IMG/VR virus record: IMGVR_UViG_3300021519_000003
Location: 1 to 28,601 of that record
DNA from: a virus
Length of the DNA: 28,601 nucleotides
Strand: one strand, 5' to 3'
Part shown: one piece after another, positions 3,217 to 14,393 of the stretch
Position numbering within the stretch: position 1 is the stretch's first letter
Layout of the letters: each line of letters opens with the position of its first letter
Made by a program: the position numbers and the translations under genes
The notes under the pieces: generated by a model
Seen by the model: only the letters and a program-made list of their open reading frames with translations
The model's database searches: none
What the model was told of the DNA's origin: nothing

Positions 3217-3241
3217 GTTGTTTTTTCTTGGTTCATAGGTT

Positions 3242-3270
3242 CTCCTCAGTGTAAAAGCTGGGGAGTTTTT
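3242..3270 (+). terminator. Rho-independent terminator after late operon
   Basis: CTCCTCAG (3242-3249) pairs with CTGGGGAG (3258-3265), 8 bp including one T-G wobble, with an 8-nt loop, followed by five T. It lies 26 nt after the stop of the HExxH gene and would end the long late transcript. Confidence 0.85.
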
Positions 3271-3272
3271 AT

Positions 3273-3280
3273 TATATTTG
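3273..3280 (+). promoter_or_regulatory. TAnnTTTG element between tandem terminators
   Basis: TATATTTG fits the Bacteroidetes -7 consensus. No TTG lies 17-23 nt upstream. If used, it would give a transcript of about 50 nt ending at the second terminator. It may be coincidental in such AT-rich DNA. Confidence 0.25.
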
Positions 3281-3303
3281 TGTATAGATTATACTAATGG
3301 TTC

Positions 3304-3337
3304 GGAGGTGCATTTTTATGCTGCCTCCCTTTTTTTT
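3304..3337 (+). terminator. Second tandem terminator
   Basis: GGAGG (3304-3308) pairs with CCTCC (3324-3328), and GCAT (3310-3313) with ATGC (3318-3321) around a TTTT loop, with a 1x2 internal bulge. A T-rich tract from 3330 to 3337 follows. Two terminators in a row insulate the early region downstream from late read-through. Confidence 0.8.
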
Positions 3338-3734
3338 GCCTTTTGTCAAGTTATAACTTTACTAATTTACTTTACCCTTTAAAAGTAAAATAACAATATT
3401 TATATGTTACAAGATATAACAAGCCCAAAATTAACAATTAACAAATTTTGTCACAATTATTTGAAAATCTGTGGCATATATACCCTAATTATGTTACAAC
3501 AATTAACAGAATAACCCCTTACTATTTTACATATTGTGTCAAATCTGCTTGAATAATTCGGAAAAATTCATGCAAATGTTCCCAAATTGGTTACAAAAGT
3601 TCGCTAATAGAAAACTTTATCAATCACAAAAGTTACCTAATAAGGCAACTTTGAGCCGTAAATGACCGATAATAGCCTCATTTATGACCGATAAACGTTA
3701 ACATAACTTTAACTAAAATAATTTAAATAATTTA
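3338..3734. other. AT-rich non-coding region, candidate origin/operator
   Basis: No convincing coding frame is present. The stretch holds short repeats: ATGTTACAA at 3404-3412 and 3491-3499; CAATTAACA at 3435-3443 and 3500-3508; ACAAAAGTT at 3593-3601 and 3626-3634 (33 bp apart); ATGACCGATAA at 3662-3672 and 3684-3694 (22 bp apart). Inverted repeats are CAAAATT/AATTTTG at 3426-3450 and AACTTT/AAAGTT at 3613-3634. It lies between the end of late genes and the first early promoter, the usual place for an origin or operator set. Function is inferred. Confidence 0.5.
3662..3694 (+). repeat. 11-bp direct repeat ATGACCGATAA, 22-bp spacing
   Basis: Two exact copies (3662-3672, 3684-3694) begin 22 bp apart, about two turns of B-DNA, so bound proteins would sit on the same face. 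They lie roughly 65 bp upstream of the early promoter and are candidate operators for the ribbon-helix-helix protein at 4071 or iterons for a replication protein. Confidence 0.6.
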
Positions 3735-3765
3735 TTGTTTGTATTGTAATCTTTATATATCTTTG
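3735..3765 (+). promoter_or_regulatory. Early promoter (Bacteroidetes type)
   Basis: TTG (3735-3737), a 20-nt spacer and TATCTTTG (3758-3765) match the TTG-N17-23-TAnnTTTG consensus known for Flavobacterium and Bacteroides. Transcription would start near 3771, about 15 nt before the first early gene at 3786. Confidence 0.7.
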
Positions 3766-3785
3766 TTGAAACAAACCAAAAGTAT

Positions 3786-4518: not shown

Positions 4519-4685
4519 GTTACATAGATAATACTAAAGTAGATTTACATCGCACTATTTACATTTTAGAAATGGAGAATGAGATGTACAGAAACCAAAT
4601 TAAAAAACTTAAATTAGAAATCAATGAATTACTGGACAATGCCATCATTAAAGGAAAGGGAGAAGGCTATGAGAAAAAGGCTTGA
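4515..4685 (+). CDS. 56-residue coiled-coil-like protein
   Basis: The ATG at 4515 overlaps the previous TGA (ATGA type), and TGA at 4683-4685 lies inside the DnaA-like gene. The product is one long charged helix (DLHRTIYILEMENEMYRNQIKKL then KLEINELLDNAIIKG), coiled-coil compatible, with a basic Gly/Lys tail. Coupling to the upstream gene argues for translation. The overlap with the DnaA-like frame is 17-62 nt depending on that gene's start. Function unknown. Confidence 0.55.
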   Translation: MSYIDNTKVDLHRTIYILEMENEMYRNQIKKLKLEINELLDNAIIKGKGEGYEKKA

Positions 4686-4971
4686 TTATGCCGATACGAT
4701 AATAAAGCAGGTATGCGAGTATTATAAGGTATCAAATAAGGACATTAGAGGCAAAAGCAGAAGGTTTATCCACACCAAGCCTAGATTTGTAGCCATTTGG
4801 CTAATTAAGGATGAATTAGGGCTTAAATTGACCGCTATTTCGGAGATGTTTGGGCGAAATCATACAACGATTATACACTCCCTTAGAACGATACAAGATA
4901 GCCTATCGCAGAAGTATGATACAGATATTTCGGATGACATAAAAGAAATAAAAAAAATATTGAGTTATTAA
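4624..4971 (+). CDS. Stand-alone DnaA domain IV protein
   Basis: The product (up to 115 residues) matches the C-terminal DNA-binding domain of DnaA. It contains ADTIIKQVCEYYKVSNKDIRGKS, an arginine-rich segment, FVAIWLIKDELGLKLTAISEMF, then GRNHTTIIHS (residues 77-86), the DnaA signature that reads the DnaA box. The AAA+ domain is absent, so it can bind DNA but not act as an ATP-driven initiator alone. It may recruit host initiation factors to the phage origin or compete with host DnaA. Starts at 4639 or 4669 are possible; 4669 follows a purine-rich AGGGAGAAGG and reduces overlap with the 4515 gene. Confidence 0.85.
   Translation: MNYWTMPSLKEREKAMRKRLDYADTIIKQVCEYYKVSNKDIRGKSRRFIHTKPRFVAIWLIKDELGLKLTAISEMFGRNHTTIIHSLRTIQDSLSQKYDTDISDDIKEIKKILSY
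4766..4774 (+). promoter_or_regulatory. Exact DnaA box inside DnaA-like gene
   Basis: TTATCCACA is the consensus DnaA box and lies within the DnaA domain IV gene. One perfect 9-mer in 28 kb may be chance, but the location in the gene for a DnaA-box reader is notable. It may be an autoregulatory or origin-proximal site. Confidence 0.4.
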
Positions 4972-6144: not shown

Positions 6145-6381
6145 ATGGAAAAGAAACAAAACTATGGTGCTTGGAAAAAAACAACATCAAAAGGCGAAGT
6201 GATTGAATTTACAATTGAGGACAAACGCTACTCAATGTGGTTAAATCAATACAAAAAGCCAGAATCTAAAGAACCAGATTACAAGATTTACCCTAATGAT
6301 TACAAGCCAAAAGCTGAAAACAAAATGGAATATCAAACTCCAGTAAATCAACAAGAAAGCGAAGATGACTTGCCGTTTTAA
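6145..6381 (+). CDS. Small protein with SSB-like C-terminal tip
   Basis: The product has 78 residues. The N-terminal half (NYGAWKKTTSKGEVIEFTIE, then KRYSMWLNQYKKP) is beta-like with exposed Trp/Tyr and many Lys, as in nucleic-acid-binding OB-type strands. A disordered Pro/Gln/Glu linker leads to the end EDDLPF, which matches the acidic tip (consensus DDDIPF) that bacterial SSB uses to bind host repair and replication proteins. The body is too short for a normal 110-residue OB fold. It is probably a minimal ssDNA-binding or SSB-mimic protein working with ERF. Confidence 0.65.
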   Translation: MEKKQNYGAWKKTTSKGEVIEFTIEDKRYSMWLNQYKKPESKEPDYKIYPNDYKPKAENKMEYQTPVNQQESEDDLPF

Positions 6382-6404: not shown

Positions 6405-6599
6405 ATGAGCCAAAACAAACAAATAGCAGATTACCTAAATAAAGGTAAAAAGCTAACTACATTAGATGCCTTGAGTAAATTCGGTTGCTTTAGATTAGCA
6501 TCACGAATTAATGATCTAAGGAATGAAGGGATGAAAATATCTACAAAGATTATCAAACTAGAGAATAAGAAGCAGATTGCCCAATATTCAATAAAATAG
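6405..6599 (+). CDS. Small winged-helix/HTH DNA-binding protein
   Basis: The product has 64 residues beginning MSQNKQIADYLNKGKKLTTL. DALSKFGCFRLASRINDLRNEG resembles a helix-turn-helix with recognition helix RLASRINDLR, followed by a short hairpin (MKISTKIIKLENKKQIAQYSI) that could be the wing. This is a common small phage HTH form. Its 3' end overlaps the promoter at 6577-6609, so it ends the first early operon and could regulate that promoter. Target unknown. Confidence 0.75.
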   Translation: MSQNKQIADYLNKGKKLTTLDALSKFGCFRLASRINDLRNEGMKISTKIIKLENKKQIAQYSIK

Positions 6600-6609
6600 G
6601 TTATCTTTG
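6577..6609 (+). promoter_or_regulatory. Promoter for structured RNA and replication gene
   Basis: TTG (6577-6579), a 22-nt spacer and TATCTTTG (6602-6609) fit the Bacteroidetes consensus. The -7 element is identical to that of the early promoter at 3758. A start near 6614 would put the first hairpin at the extreme 5' end of the RNA. Confidence 0.65.
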
Positions 6610-6612
6610 CCA

Positions 6613-6700
6613 TAGGTGTAGGATACCTAATTTTAAACTTATTGGCTCGAAGCTGAACCCCTAATCCTACTGGGGGGAATGCCTAGAGCCTTTTTATTTT
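6613..6700 (+). ncRNA. Structured leader/small RNA with kissing loops
   Basis: Hairpin 1 is TAGGT (6613-6617) / ACCTA (6625-6629) with loop GTAGGAT. A second long hairpin has GGCTC (6644-6648) / GAGCC (6686-6690), an inner GC/GC (6652-6653, 6681-6682) and CCCC (6658-6661) / GGGG (6672-6675), closing a loop that contains ATCCTAC (6664-6670). The two loops are perfectly complementary over 7 nt, allowing a kissing interaction. The T-rich tract TTTTTATTTT (6691-6700) makes the second hairpin terminator-like, ending exactly at the ATG of the replication gene. It could be a discrete RNA of about 80 nt or an attenuator. Function is inferred. Confidence 0.65.
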
Positions 6701-7411
6701 ATGAAAAGCAATTCATATTATTTCAGCCACGATTATAACGCTGCAAATGATACAAAAGTCCTTTTTTTAAGGCATCAATTAGGGATGGAGGGTTATGGGA
6801 TTTATTGGTATTTAATTGAACAATTAGCAAATGCAGGGGGAAAATTACCTTTAGAATTAATACCTGTTTTAGCTATGCAGATGCATTGCACAGATGTAAA
6901 AGTTAATGGGGTACTTATGAATTTTGGTCTATTTACCCTTGATTCAGGCGAATTTTGGTCTGAAAGATTACAGAATCATTTAGAATTAAGGCTAAAACTA
7001 AGTGAAAGTGGGAAAACAGGAGCAAATAATAGGTGGGGTAATAGGGTGGCTATTGGGGAGGGTAATGCAAAGGAAAGAAAAGAAAAGGAAATAAAAGGAA
7101 AAGAAAGTAAAGTAAATGAAATTAAACTAATAGATATAGATTTTAATAAGTTTTGGGATATATACGATTATAAGAAATCTAAGGACAAAGCAGAAAAGGC
7201 TTGGAAAACTTTAAATAAAGAAGAAAAGGCTTTAGCTTTACAAAACGCACCATTATACGTTAAGTCAACACCAGATAAACAATTTAGAAAGCATCCAACA
7301 ACATACTTAAACAATAAAAATTTCAACGATGAAATCATTGAACGAACTATTAGTACAAAACTTACCTATGCAGAACGTGAGTGGGAGAAGTTTAAGCAGC
7401 TTGGACAATGA
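6701..7411 (+). CDS. DUF4373 replication initiator-like protein
   Basis: The product has 236 residues. The N-terminal 110 residues (YYFSHDYNAANDTKVLFLRH, GMEGYGIYWYLIEQLANAGG, then GKTGANNRWGN) match the DUF4373 / Lin1244-Lin1753 N-terminal domain found in phage and plasmid replication proteins with a winged-helix fold. A Lys/Glu-rich linker (about 120-140) precedes a C-terminal domain with FNKFWDIYDYKKSKDKAEKAW and HPTTYLNNKNF, which resembles primosomal DnaT/DnaD-type C-terminal motifs. It probably marks the phage origin and helps load the host helicase. Its ATG sits directly behind a terminator-like RNA, so expression may be attenuated. Confidence 0.85.
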   Translation: MKSNSYYFSHDYNAANDTKVLFLRHQLGMEGYGIYWYLIEQLANAGGKLPLELIPVLAMQMHCTDVKVNGVLMNFGLFTLDSGEFWSERLQNHLELRLKLSESGKTGANNRWGNRVAIGEGNAKERKEKEIKGKESKVNEIKLIDIDFNKFWDIYDYKKSKDKAEKAWKTLNKEEKALALQNAPLYVKSTPDKQFRKHPTTYLNNKNFNDEIIERTISTKLTYAEREWEKFKQLGQ

Positions 7412-9092: not shown

Positions 9093-9464
9093 ATGGCATT
9101 ACCTACGATTCCCAAATTAACGGCAAAGGCTCAAACAATATTTAACAGATATATCCGTACAAGGGATTCACAAGACGGATTTTTTACTTGTATTTCTTGC
9201 GGTCAAGTTAAAGGACACGAAGTTATGGATGCTGGTCATTATGTCCCAGTCAAAGGAAGTTCTGCATTAAGATTTGATGAATATAACGTAAACGGAGAAT
9301 GTAAATCTTGCAATGGATTTGACCAATTTCACCTTATAGGCTACCGAAAGAACCTTATTGATAAAATAGGCGAAAGAATGGTAATGCACCTAGAAAGCCA
9401 ACATAGATTAATAAAGAAATGGTCTAGGACAGAATTAAACTACATAATAGAAAAGTATAAATAA
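9093..9464 (+). CDS. ninG: NinG/Rap-type recombination nuclease
   Basis: The product has 123 residues. It matches lambda NinG (Rap), a structure-specific nuclease that resolves recombination junctions. The core shows RTRDSQDGFFTCISCG (C33, C36), MDAGHYVPVKGSSALRFDEY (H49), then NGECKSCNGFDQFHLIGYRK (C70, C73), an HNH-like zinc site with a D/H pair. The C-terminus is a helical basic region (HRLIKKWSRTELNYIIEKYK). Together with the ERF annealase it makes a lambda-like recombination pair. The length is shorter than lambda NinG because the N-terminal extension is absent. Confidence 0.88.
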   Translation: MALPTIPKLTAKAQTIFNRYIRTRDSQDGFFTCISCGQVKGHEVMDAGHYVPVKGSSALRFDEYNVNGECKSCNGFDQFHLIGYRKNLIDKIGERMVMHLESQHRLIKKWSRTELNYIIEKYK

Positions 9465-13508: not shown

Positions 13509-14393
13509 ATGATTTGGCAAGATTATAGAAAACTATATGCCAACGCATTAAAACAATACTCACCTAAGTTCAAAAAAGAACTACAAAATCAGGTGAATAC
13601 CTATTGCCGTACCCTAGACTACAACAAAATTAGCGACAAAGCCCTAAAAAAGACCATTTACAAGCTCCATTTAGCTATGGGTACTAAGATGGCTCAAATA
13701 AGTGAAAGTGTCGTTAAAAGGTCTGTAAAGGGGGTTTATGTGCCTTTTGAGTTTAAATCACAAAAGACAGATGCTTTCCAATATGCTATTATCCAAGTCC
13801 TTCAAAATGATGGATTAGACCAATTAGCCTCAGATATTACCAATACGACCAAAGAACAGATAAGAAGATTCTTAATTCAATCAGCAGAGCAGAACTTAAC
13901 AATGCCTGAAACAATAGCCTTGCTTAGGACATCTGGAATAACAGATTATAGAGCCGAACTTATAGCTAGAACGGAAACAGGCAGGGCTGCAAATATTGGT
14001 TCAATGGTTGGAGCAACTAGCACTGGACTTGTAACTATCAAAGAATGGATTTCAGCAAGAGACAACCGAACAAGGAGAGAGCCAAGAGACCATACTGACC
14101 ACTTAAATATGGATGGAGTTAAACTTCCTATGGAGAAACAATTTCACGTTCCTAATAATCAAGTAGGCTTAGGTTATGAATTAATGGACCACCCTTGCGA
14201 TTCTAAAGCAAGTGCTGCCAATGTTTGTAATTGTAGATGTACTTTAGGATATGAGGCGGTAAGAGGTGCAAATGGTAAACTTTTAACTTTAGTAGATAAC
14301 CCTCCAATGGGTAGAGTTGCAGTTATTTGGAATGCTCTACAAAATGTAATAGGACAAACAATAGGAAAACTTATAGCATCATTAATACAATAA
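13509..14393 (+). CDS. MuF/SPP1 gp7-like minor head protein
   Basis: The product has 294 residues. A helical N-terminal half (LYANALKQYSPKFKKELQNQ) precedes the MuF domain: IARTETGRAANIGSMVGATS, IKEWISARDNRTRREPRDHT then DHLNMDGVKLP, and the terminal HPCDSKASAANVCNCRCTLG. The D-N-R-T-R, H-x-x-M-x-G and C-x-C-R-C motifs are those of Mu gpF-like and SPP1 gp7-like proteins found in capsid interiors. The extra 40 residues end in a hydrophobic helix (VAVIWNALQNVIGQTIGKLI) that could interact with membrane or portal. It starts directly after the previous stop. Confidence 0.9.
   Translation: MIWQDYRKLYANALKQYSPKFKKELQNQVNTYCRTLDYNKISDKALKKTIYKLHLAMGTKMAQISESVVKRSVKGVYVPFEFKSQKTDAFQYAIIQVLQNDGLDQLASDITNTTKEQIRRFLIQSAEQNLTMPETIALLRTSGITDYRAELIARTETGRAANIGSMVGATSTGLVTIKEWISARDNRTRREPRDHTDHLNMDGVKLPMEKQFHVPNNQVGLGYELMDHPCDSKASAANVCNCRCTLGYEAVRGANGKLLTLVDNPPMGRVAVIWNALQNVIGQTIGKLIASLIQ

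Follow-up and report, generated by a model that had tools for sequence, protein, structure and literature searches.

A predicted kissing-loop leader RNA upstream of replication and homing endonuclease genes in Bacteroidota phages

Genes and features of the locus

The window analyzed here is the whole of the virus record IMGVR_UViG_3300021519_000003, 28,601 nt in length. Its replication initiation gene is directly preceded by a candidate leader RNA, the parts of which are listed in Table 1. The -7 consensus of the Bacteroidota primary sigma factor, TAnnTTTG, spans -12 to -5 (PMC9723704). Since the TATCTTTG element ahead of the RNA would occupy these positions, the transcript is predicted to start at A6614, where the core of the P1 stem begins. 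The small hairpin P1 is followed by a linker, a larger hairpin (hairpin 2) with conserved internal loops, and a U-tract.

Table 1. Positions of the leader RNA, its promoter and the gene downstream in the window
Feature	Position	Strand	Basis
-33-like TTG, weak	6577-6579	+	sequence alone
-7 promoter element TATCTTTG, Bacteroidota primary sigma factor	6602-6609	+	match to consensus TAnnTTTG
Leader RNA, predicted +1 (A6614) to last base before ATG, ~87 nt	6614-6700	+	
Hairpin P1, 5 bp (6613-6617/6625-6629)	6613-6629	+	covariation
Loop L1, GTAGGAT, tip of P1	6618-6624	+	
Single-stranded linker, conserved core AACTTATTG	6630-6643	+	linker also in class B
Hairpin 2: P2 (6644-6648/6686-6690), P3 (6652-6653/6681-6682), P4 (6658-6663/6671-6676)	6644-6690	+	
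Loop L4, ATCCTAC, partner of L1	6664-6670	+	covariation of kissing helix
Terminator-like U-tract TTTTTATTTT, abuts ATG at 6701	6691-6700	+	sequence
Lin1244_N (DUF4373) replication initiation protein gene	6701-7411	+	Pfam E 9.7e-10; PHROG 2562 E 5e-16

Folding of nt 6614-6700 recovers both hairpins (z = -2.2), with the P1 loop closed by two extra pairs. Hairpin 2 alone is GC-rich and stable (-20.4 kcal/mol, z = -3.0), and with the U-run behind it has the sequence layout of an intrinsic terminator or attenuator. This layout is retained in all members of the family described below, and none of the other gene starts examined in the window has a comparable T-run. When both strands of the window were scanned for two hairpins with entirely complementary loops of 7 or 8 nt and a T-run, the present element was the single case; no such hairpin pair occurred in 40 dinucleotide shuffles of the plus strand.

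Two other regions of the window were noted. Nucleotides 4624-4971 encode a protein of 115 residues that comprises little beyond the C-terminal DNA-binding domain of DnaA (Pfam Bac_DnaA_C, E 8.4e-20), and the predicted product is a phage stand-alone DnaA domain IV; the gene of an ERF annealing protein follows. Nucleotides 3217-3785, about 570 bases in a compact phage genome, hold no convincing gene, and contain short direct repeats (3403/3490 and 3593/3626) and a copy of TATCTTTG at 3758.

Covariation of the stems and loops

The best 80 viral loci carrying a relative of the Lin1244_N protein were fetched blind to the RNA, and in almost all of them the promoter, P1, linker, hairpin 2 and T-tract precede the gene. 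With a covariance model trained on relatives (R1), elements score about E 1e-6 or lower, and 549 kb of sequence gave no stray match. The covariance-model match in the window extends from nt 6612 to 6700 (100.9 bits, E 1.2e-14).

Pairing was assessed in 45 distinct rows that were gathered by protein homology and share ancestry. In these rows 97.4% of the paired cells are complementary, versus 69.5% with the letters of the 3′ side shuffled and at most 48% with the partners slid. Changes on both sides are found in 20 of the 25 pairs, the kissing helix included: four of five in P1, all five in P2, one of two in P3 and five of six in P4. Pairing in the kissing helix between the two loops reaches 99.7%; of the seven pairs, five changed on both sides and none on one side only, and no G-U pair is present. 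The sole exception is a row without P1 (L082).

Given the common ancestry of the 45 rows and the training of R1 on relatives, a cross test between elements provides a cleaner figure. In class A, the P1 loop complements the hairpin 2 loop of its own element in 44 of 44 rows, and complementarity is absent from all 1,534 cross-combinations in which the two elements differ in their loops. Shuffles and cross-pairing were used as the chance controls; reversing the sequence is uninformative for this purpose because reversal keeps the pairing. A tree built without the loops requires at least 17 switches of the loop pair.

The family displays about 28 distinct loop pairs, 17 in class A and 11 in class B. 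Loops are 6, 7 or 8 nt long, and the complementarity always covers the whole loop. Members found by the model, outside the reach of an exact 7-mer search, have 6-nt loops (CCGTAC, GTGCAA) as well as 8-nt loops (TCCGTACA, TGTGGTAG) that are likewise complementary from end to end. In class A the loops lie 38-42 nt apart, with little variation. G-T pairs outnumber A-C pairs by 43 to 3, and the structure is therefore assigned to the strand of the gene (+); this ratio speaks against a minus-strand structure, though it can not separate RNA from single-stranded DNA.

A two-hairpin kissing structure is thus, judged from the aligned sequences, close to certain. A kiss between nt 6618-6624 and 6664-6670 had been proposed by the first-pass annotation, with covariation of the two loops as the support to be sought, and the covariation described above strongly supports it. 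Every part of the layout it had described, from promoter through structured RNA and terminator-like hairpin to ATG, is present. Its "good" Bacteroidetes promoter holds for the -7 element and less well for the -33 region, where only a weak TTG is seen. It had also recognized no known riboswitch or ribozyme, and the Rfam scan bears this out: Rfam 15 has no match in the window and none of relevance at a permissive threshold, nor any at the element in nine related loci, class B included.

Classes and downstream genes

Class B has a longer first hairpin, with linker and T-tract as in class A. Its loops are complementary over at least 7 bases in 21 of 21 members, and the distance between the loop starts is 49-52. 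The lower stem is nearly invariant in class B, so that its pairing carries no covariation signal.

A search with a pattern of the RNA only returned 42 records, all of which contain a covariance-model match. Among the matches listed, every distinct member has an ATG directly after the RNA. A broader pattern in which the ATG was required yields many more members. Most class A members precede replication initiators of several families. The other genes found behind the cassette encode an N6/N4 DNA methylase, NUMOD4-HNH and GIY-YIG homing endonucleases, and an ATPase-acetyltransferase. Class B was found before homing endonucleases only. The same RNA, letter for letter, was found before three different genes.

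The replication initiators downstream in L119, L111, L176, L152, L153 and L147 share a C-terminal domain (..FWDxYDYKK..PDKQFRKxPxTYLNNKSFNDE..) and have unrelated N-terminal domains. From these sequences, exchange of the N-terminal part seems to occur at the leader RNA. In L124, the element at nt 1960-2048 precedes a gene for a 382-residue fusion of an ABC-type ATPase-like region and a GNAT acetyltransferase, and a second element with other loops precedes a replication gene 1.2 kb beyond the first.

Phages with two to five copies of the element were found, and in each of them the loops differ between copies. One 52.7 kb phage fragment harbors five class B leaders, no two of which share a loop pair. 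These differences may reflect separate origins of the copies rather than selection. Two natural members, L082 (nt 1255-1352) and L114 (nt 13870-13953), have no P1 and keep hairpin 2 and the T-tract; in L082 the promoter is still present. The loss of P1 may be real or may be an assembly fault.

The element has not been described in the literature searched, and the predicted structure is that of an undescribed structured RNA family of Bacteroidota phages. The collections in which it was found hold mostly fragments of uncultured phages. No record among the INPHARED isolate phages has the element at the DNA level, and relatives of the Lin1244_N protein in INPHARED are below 60% identity. A search of about 690 Bacteroidota genomes gave none beyond the starting-point metagenome-assembled genome (MAG) with phage contigs, a weak negative, few candidates having been scored per genome. 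The host is indicated only by a Chitinophagaceae MAG and a Sphingomonadaceae-labelled MAG, the latter of which probably contains a mis-binned phage contig. A conserved upstream open reading frame was rejected by eye, the members having no frame in common.

Promoters

A TAnnTTTG-like element lies close upstream of P1 in 91 of 94 class A members, and in 69 of these 91 the predicted +1 and the end of P1 are at most one base apart. Class A is thus served by a host promoter located upstream of P1. A motif of a different kind was found in class B. L199 derives from a class B phage of 91 kb, in which ATATTTAT is the most enriched 8-mer upstream of genes (15 versus 1.0 expected). TATTTAT occurs in this phage (L325-L329) before about 20 genes, 10-40 bases and often 10-11 bases from the ATG, in a promoter-like manner; it resembles, and is not identical to, the T4 late promoter TATAAATA. 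Class B RNAs begin directly at TATTTAT, which adjoins the 5′ arm of P1. The RNA part thus follows a host promoter in class A and one of phage type in class B, and it depends on no single promoter or phage.

In these phages, the same promoters also drive other genes, with short, unstructured leaders. TAnnTTTG was also observed only 4-5 bases before the ATG of the genes at nt 9093, 14419 and 23175 of the window, 4789 of L064 and 4730 of L018; from this spacing the genes apparently give rise to leaderless messages. A scan of the minus strand between nt 6165 and 9742 of the window found no TAnnTTTG.

Insertion of the cassette

Comparison of L145 with L207 and L156 reveals an insertion of ~0.58 kb, which consists of the promoter, the RNA and an HNH gene. 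The left edge of the insertion is the promoter of the RNA. L067 has the same left edge when compared with L064, and its homology with L064 and L068 stops 14 bases before the RNA. In L064 and L018, where the site is empty, the promoter of the following gene lies 4 bases from its ATG; window genes 9093 and 23175 have the same spacing. These boundaries indicate that promoter, RNA and HNH gene were inserted as a unit.

The RNA as a property of the HNH family was considered and rejected, being present in only the 4 closest of 80 HNH relatives; one extra hairpin-scan match, L337, lacks the rest of the motif. Since distant HNH relatives are mostly without the RNA, the leader belongs to a phage gene pool and not to the protein family.

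Discussion

The comparison of related sequences establishes the predicted helices and kissing pairs, the promoter and U-tract, the place before the ATG, the exchange of genes behind the RNA and the co-insertion with an HNH gene. The fixed position before the ATG, the spacing of the loops, the lack of dependence on promoter type or downstream protein, and the GC-rich stem with a T-tract behind it together argue for a cis-acting leader, and the near-constant spacing fits pairing of the loops in cis. The reading that we favor is a horizontally mobile, cis-acting 5′ leader that combines a kissing-locked terminator with a translation block; we give it about an even chance of being correct.

Transcription would start at the first base of P1, and P1, the linker and hairpin 2 would then fold in this order. 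Pairing of the entire P1 loop with the entire hairpin 2 loop would produce a compact RNA with P2 as base stem and the U-tract leading into the start codon. The kissing-locked hairpin would most likely act as a partial intrinsic terminator, and read-through transcripts would still carry a strong structure that stops about 10 nt short of the ATG. The outcome would be weak or conditional expression of replication initiators, homing endonucleases and DNA methylases, and some signal may relieve the block. We infer each of the following: the pairing within one molecule, the termination of the polymerase, the reduced translation and the relief by a signal.

Gene starts in Bacteroidota, as in Flavobacterium, favor the absence of structure from -20 to +20 and an A at -3 (PMC6847099). 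The leader deviates from the Flavobacterium preference; its stem ends about 10 bases before the ATG and the base at -3 is usually U. Visual inspection of the aligned members revealed no conserved segment with which P2 or P4 could pair instead. A two-state attenuator or riboswitch therefore gains no support from the alignment, and a constant damper would be the simplest form of the leader.

Several observations count against parts of this reading. P2 is short, with 4-6 bp, and gives way to an internal loop, and in some members the base directly after the stem is A or C, which weakens the case for a terminator. It is also hard to see why a promoter should serve a terminator alone, except where much of the transcription reads through or the short RNA has a function of its own. 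L082 and L114, with hairpin 2 and no P1, may speak against a kissing-locked leader if they are not assembly faults.

The first-pass annotation had offered an attenuator, a copy-control RNA or a discrete small RNA of about 80 nt. Of these, the attenuator still describes the likely function best, and copy control is too narrow, as the element also stands before homing endonucleases and DNA methylases. It is possible, rather than probable, that the element is a regulatory RNA of a new kind, a portable kissing-loop leader that phages and their homing endonucleases can place on any promoter to gate the gene behind it, alone or with host machinery only, with loops that drift jointly and possibly with self-recognition of co-resident copies.

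A discrete, stable phage small RNA of ~80-87 nt might instead act in trans on a protein, the host RNA polymerase or other transcripts, the ATG adjoining it because promoter, RNA and gene are inserted as a cassette. The hairpin at +1 and the U-tract would protect both ends, the fold is compact, and the element travels as one unit. However, each loop is taken up by the other and the two vary freely as a pair, so they can not be conserved seeds for another target, and the ATG follows directly even in the listed members found without requiring one. A purely trans-acting RNA thus becomes less likely, and we regard it as unlikely.

The leader might also raise expression, its structured 5′ end and U-rich stretch stabilizing the mRNA or aiding the ribosome to start. 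Most members have no overhang ahead of P1, which begins at +1, and the U-rich stretch before the ATG is kept in all classes, though the first bases after the stem are sometimes not T. Yet other phage genes, presumably some of them highly expressed, use the same promoters without the leader, and a U at -3 and structure within -20 are unfavorable in Flavobacterium (PMC6847099). Such a role appears quite unlikely.

That about 28 loop pairs exist, and that the two to five copies in one phage differ in their loops, would suit self-recognition in trans, in which the loop pair sets the specificity of copy-number or immunity control in the manner of plasmid incompatibility groups. Pairing in trans does not need the near-fixed loop spacing, however; by our estimate the chance of differing loops is roughly 0.1 over all cases, which is not unlikely, and for homing endonuclease genes there is no copy number that could be controlled. 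We consider this improbable. A structural RNA that forms multimers through its two fully complementary loops, like the ring of phi29 packaging RNA, is highly improbable, with no packaging genes nearby and several copies per phage that differ in loops and adjoin different genes.

By standing before homing endonucleases, methylases and replication initiators alike, the leader would connect selfish elements with core phage genes through one regulatory part. The family adds a structured RNA of rare architecture, two hairpins whose entire loops pair over 6-8 bp, with a clear genomic rule of promoter, RNA and start codon. With loops that change in pairs, break-and-restore mutants offer a clean test of the kissing helix. 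The RNA also supplies orthogonal kissing pairs for RNA design.

Comparison with known systems

In homing endonuclease genes of T4-type phages, a structure in the leader blocks synthesis of the enzyme from read-through transcripts (PMC3014915). The leaders of I-TevI, Aeh1 mobE and segB resemble the present one in that a structure lies just before the start codon of a phage homing endonuclease gene. In class B the phage promoter motif TATTTAT adjoins the 5′ arm of the first hairpin, the arm that in T4-type leaders holds a late promoter. Those leaders are single hairpins that mask the Shine-Dalgarno site, with neither kissing loops nor a terminator. In the present leader the start region is not sequestered; about 10 nt separate the end of the helix from the ATG, which is unpaired in the covarying structure. 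It is also placed before replication genes and methylases, in hosts without Shine-Dalgarno use.

The phi29 packaging RNA likewise has two complementary loops in one phage RNA, but it is a three-way junction of the packaging motor, encoded apart from replication genes and different in genome position and structure. An RNA of this type was rejected as a candidate, the present element consisting of two hairpins with no junction and adjoining replication or endonuclease genes.

The CI RNA of phage P4 and the C4 RNA of phage P1 are short, contain complementary segments, and stop expression of the downstream operon. They are antisense RNAs that act on a separate leader, whereas here the complement lies within the same 87 nt and the loops vary by lineage. 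In the repZ leader of IncIalpha and IncB plasmids, a pseudoknot formed by long-range pairing of a loop controls expression of the rep gene. There one loop pairs with a stretch close to the Shine-Dalgarno site, in competition with a separate antisense RNA; the present leader has loop-loop pairing, no known antisense RNA, and other genes besides rep.

In ColE1, whole 7-nt loops of RNA I and RNA II pair, and paired mutations shift the specificity. RNA I and RNA II are two RNAs from opposite strands, whereas the present loops lie in one RNA at a fixed spacing. Pairing of whole loops and their change in pairs are common to both systems.
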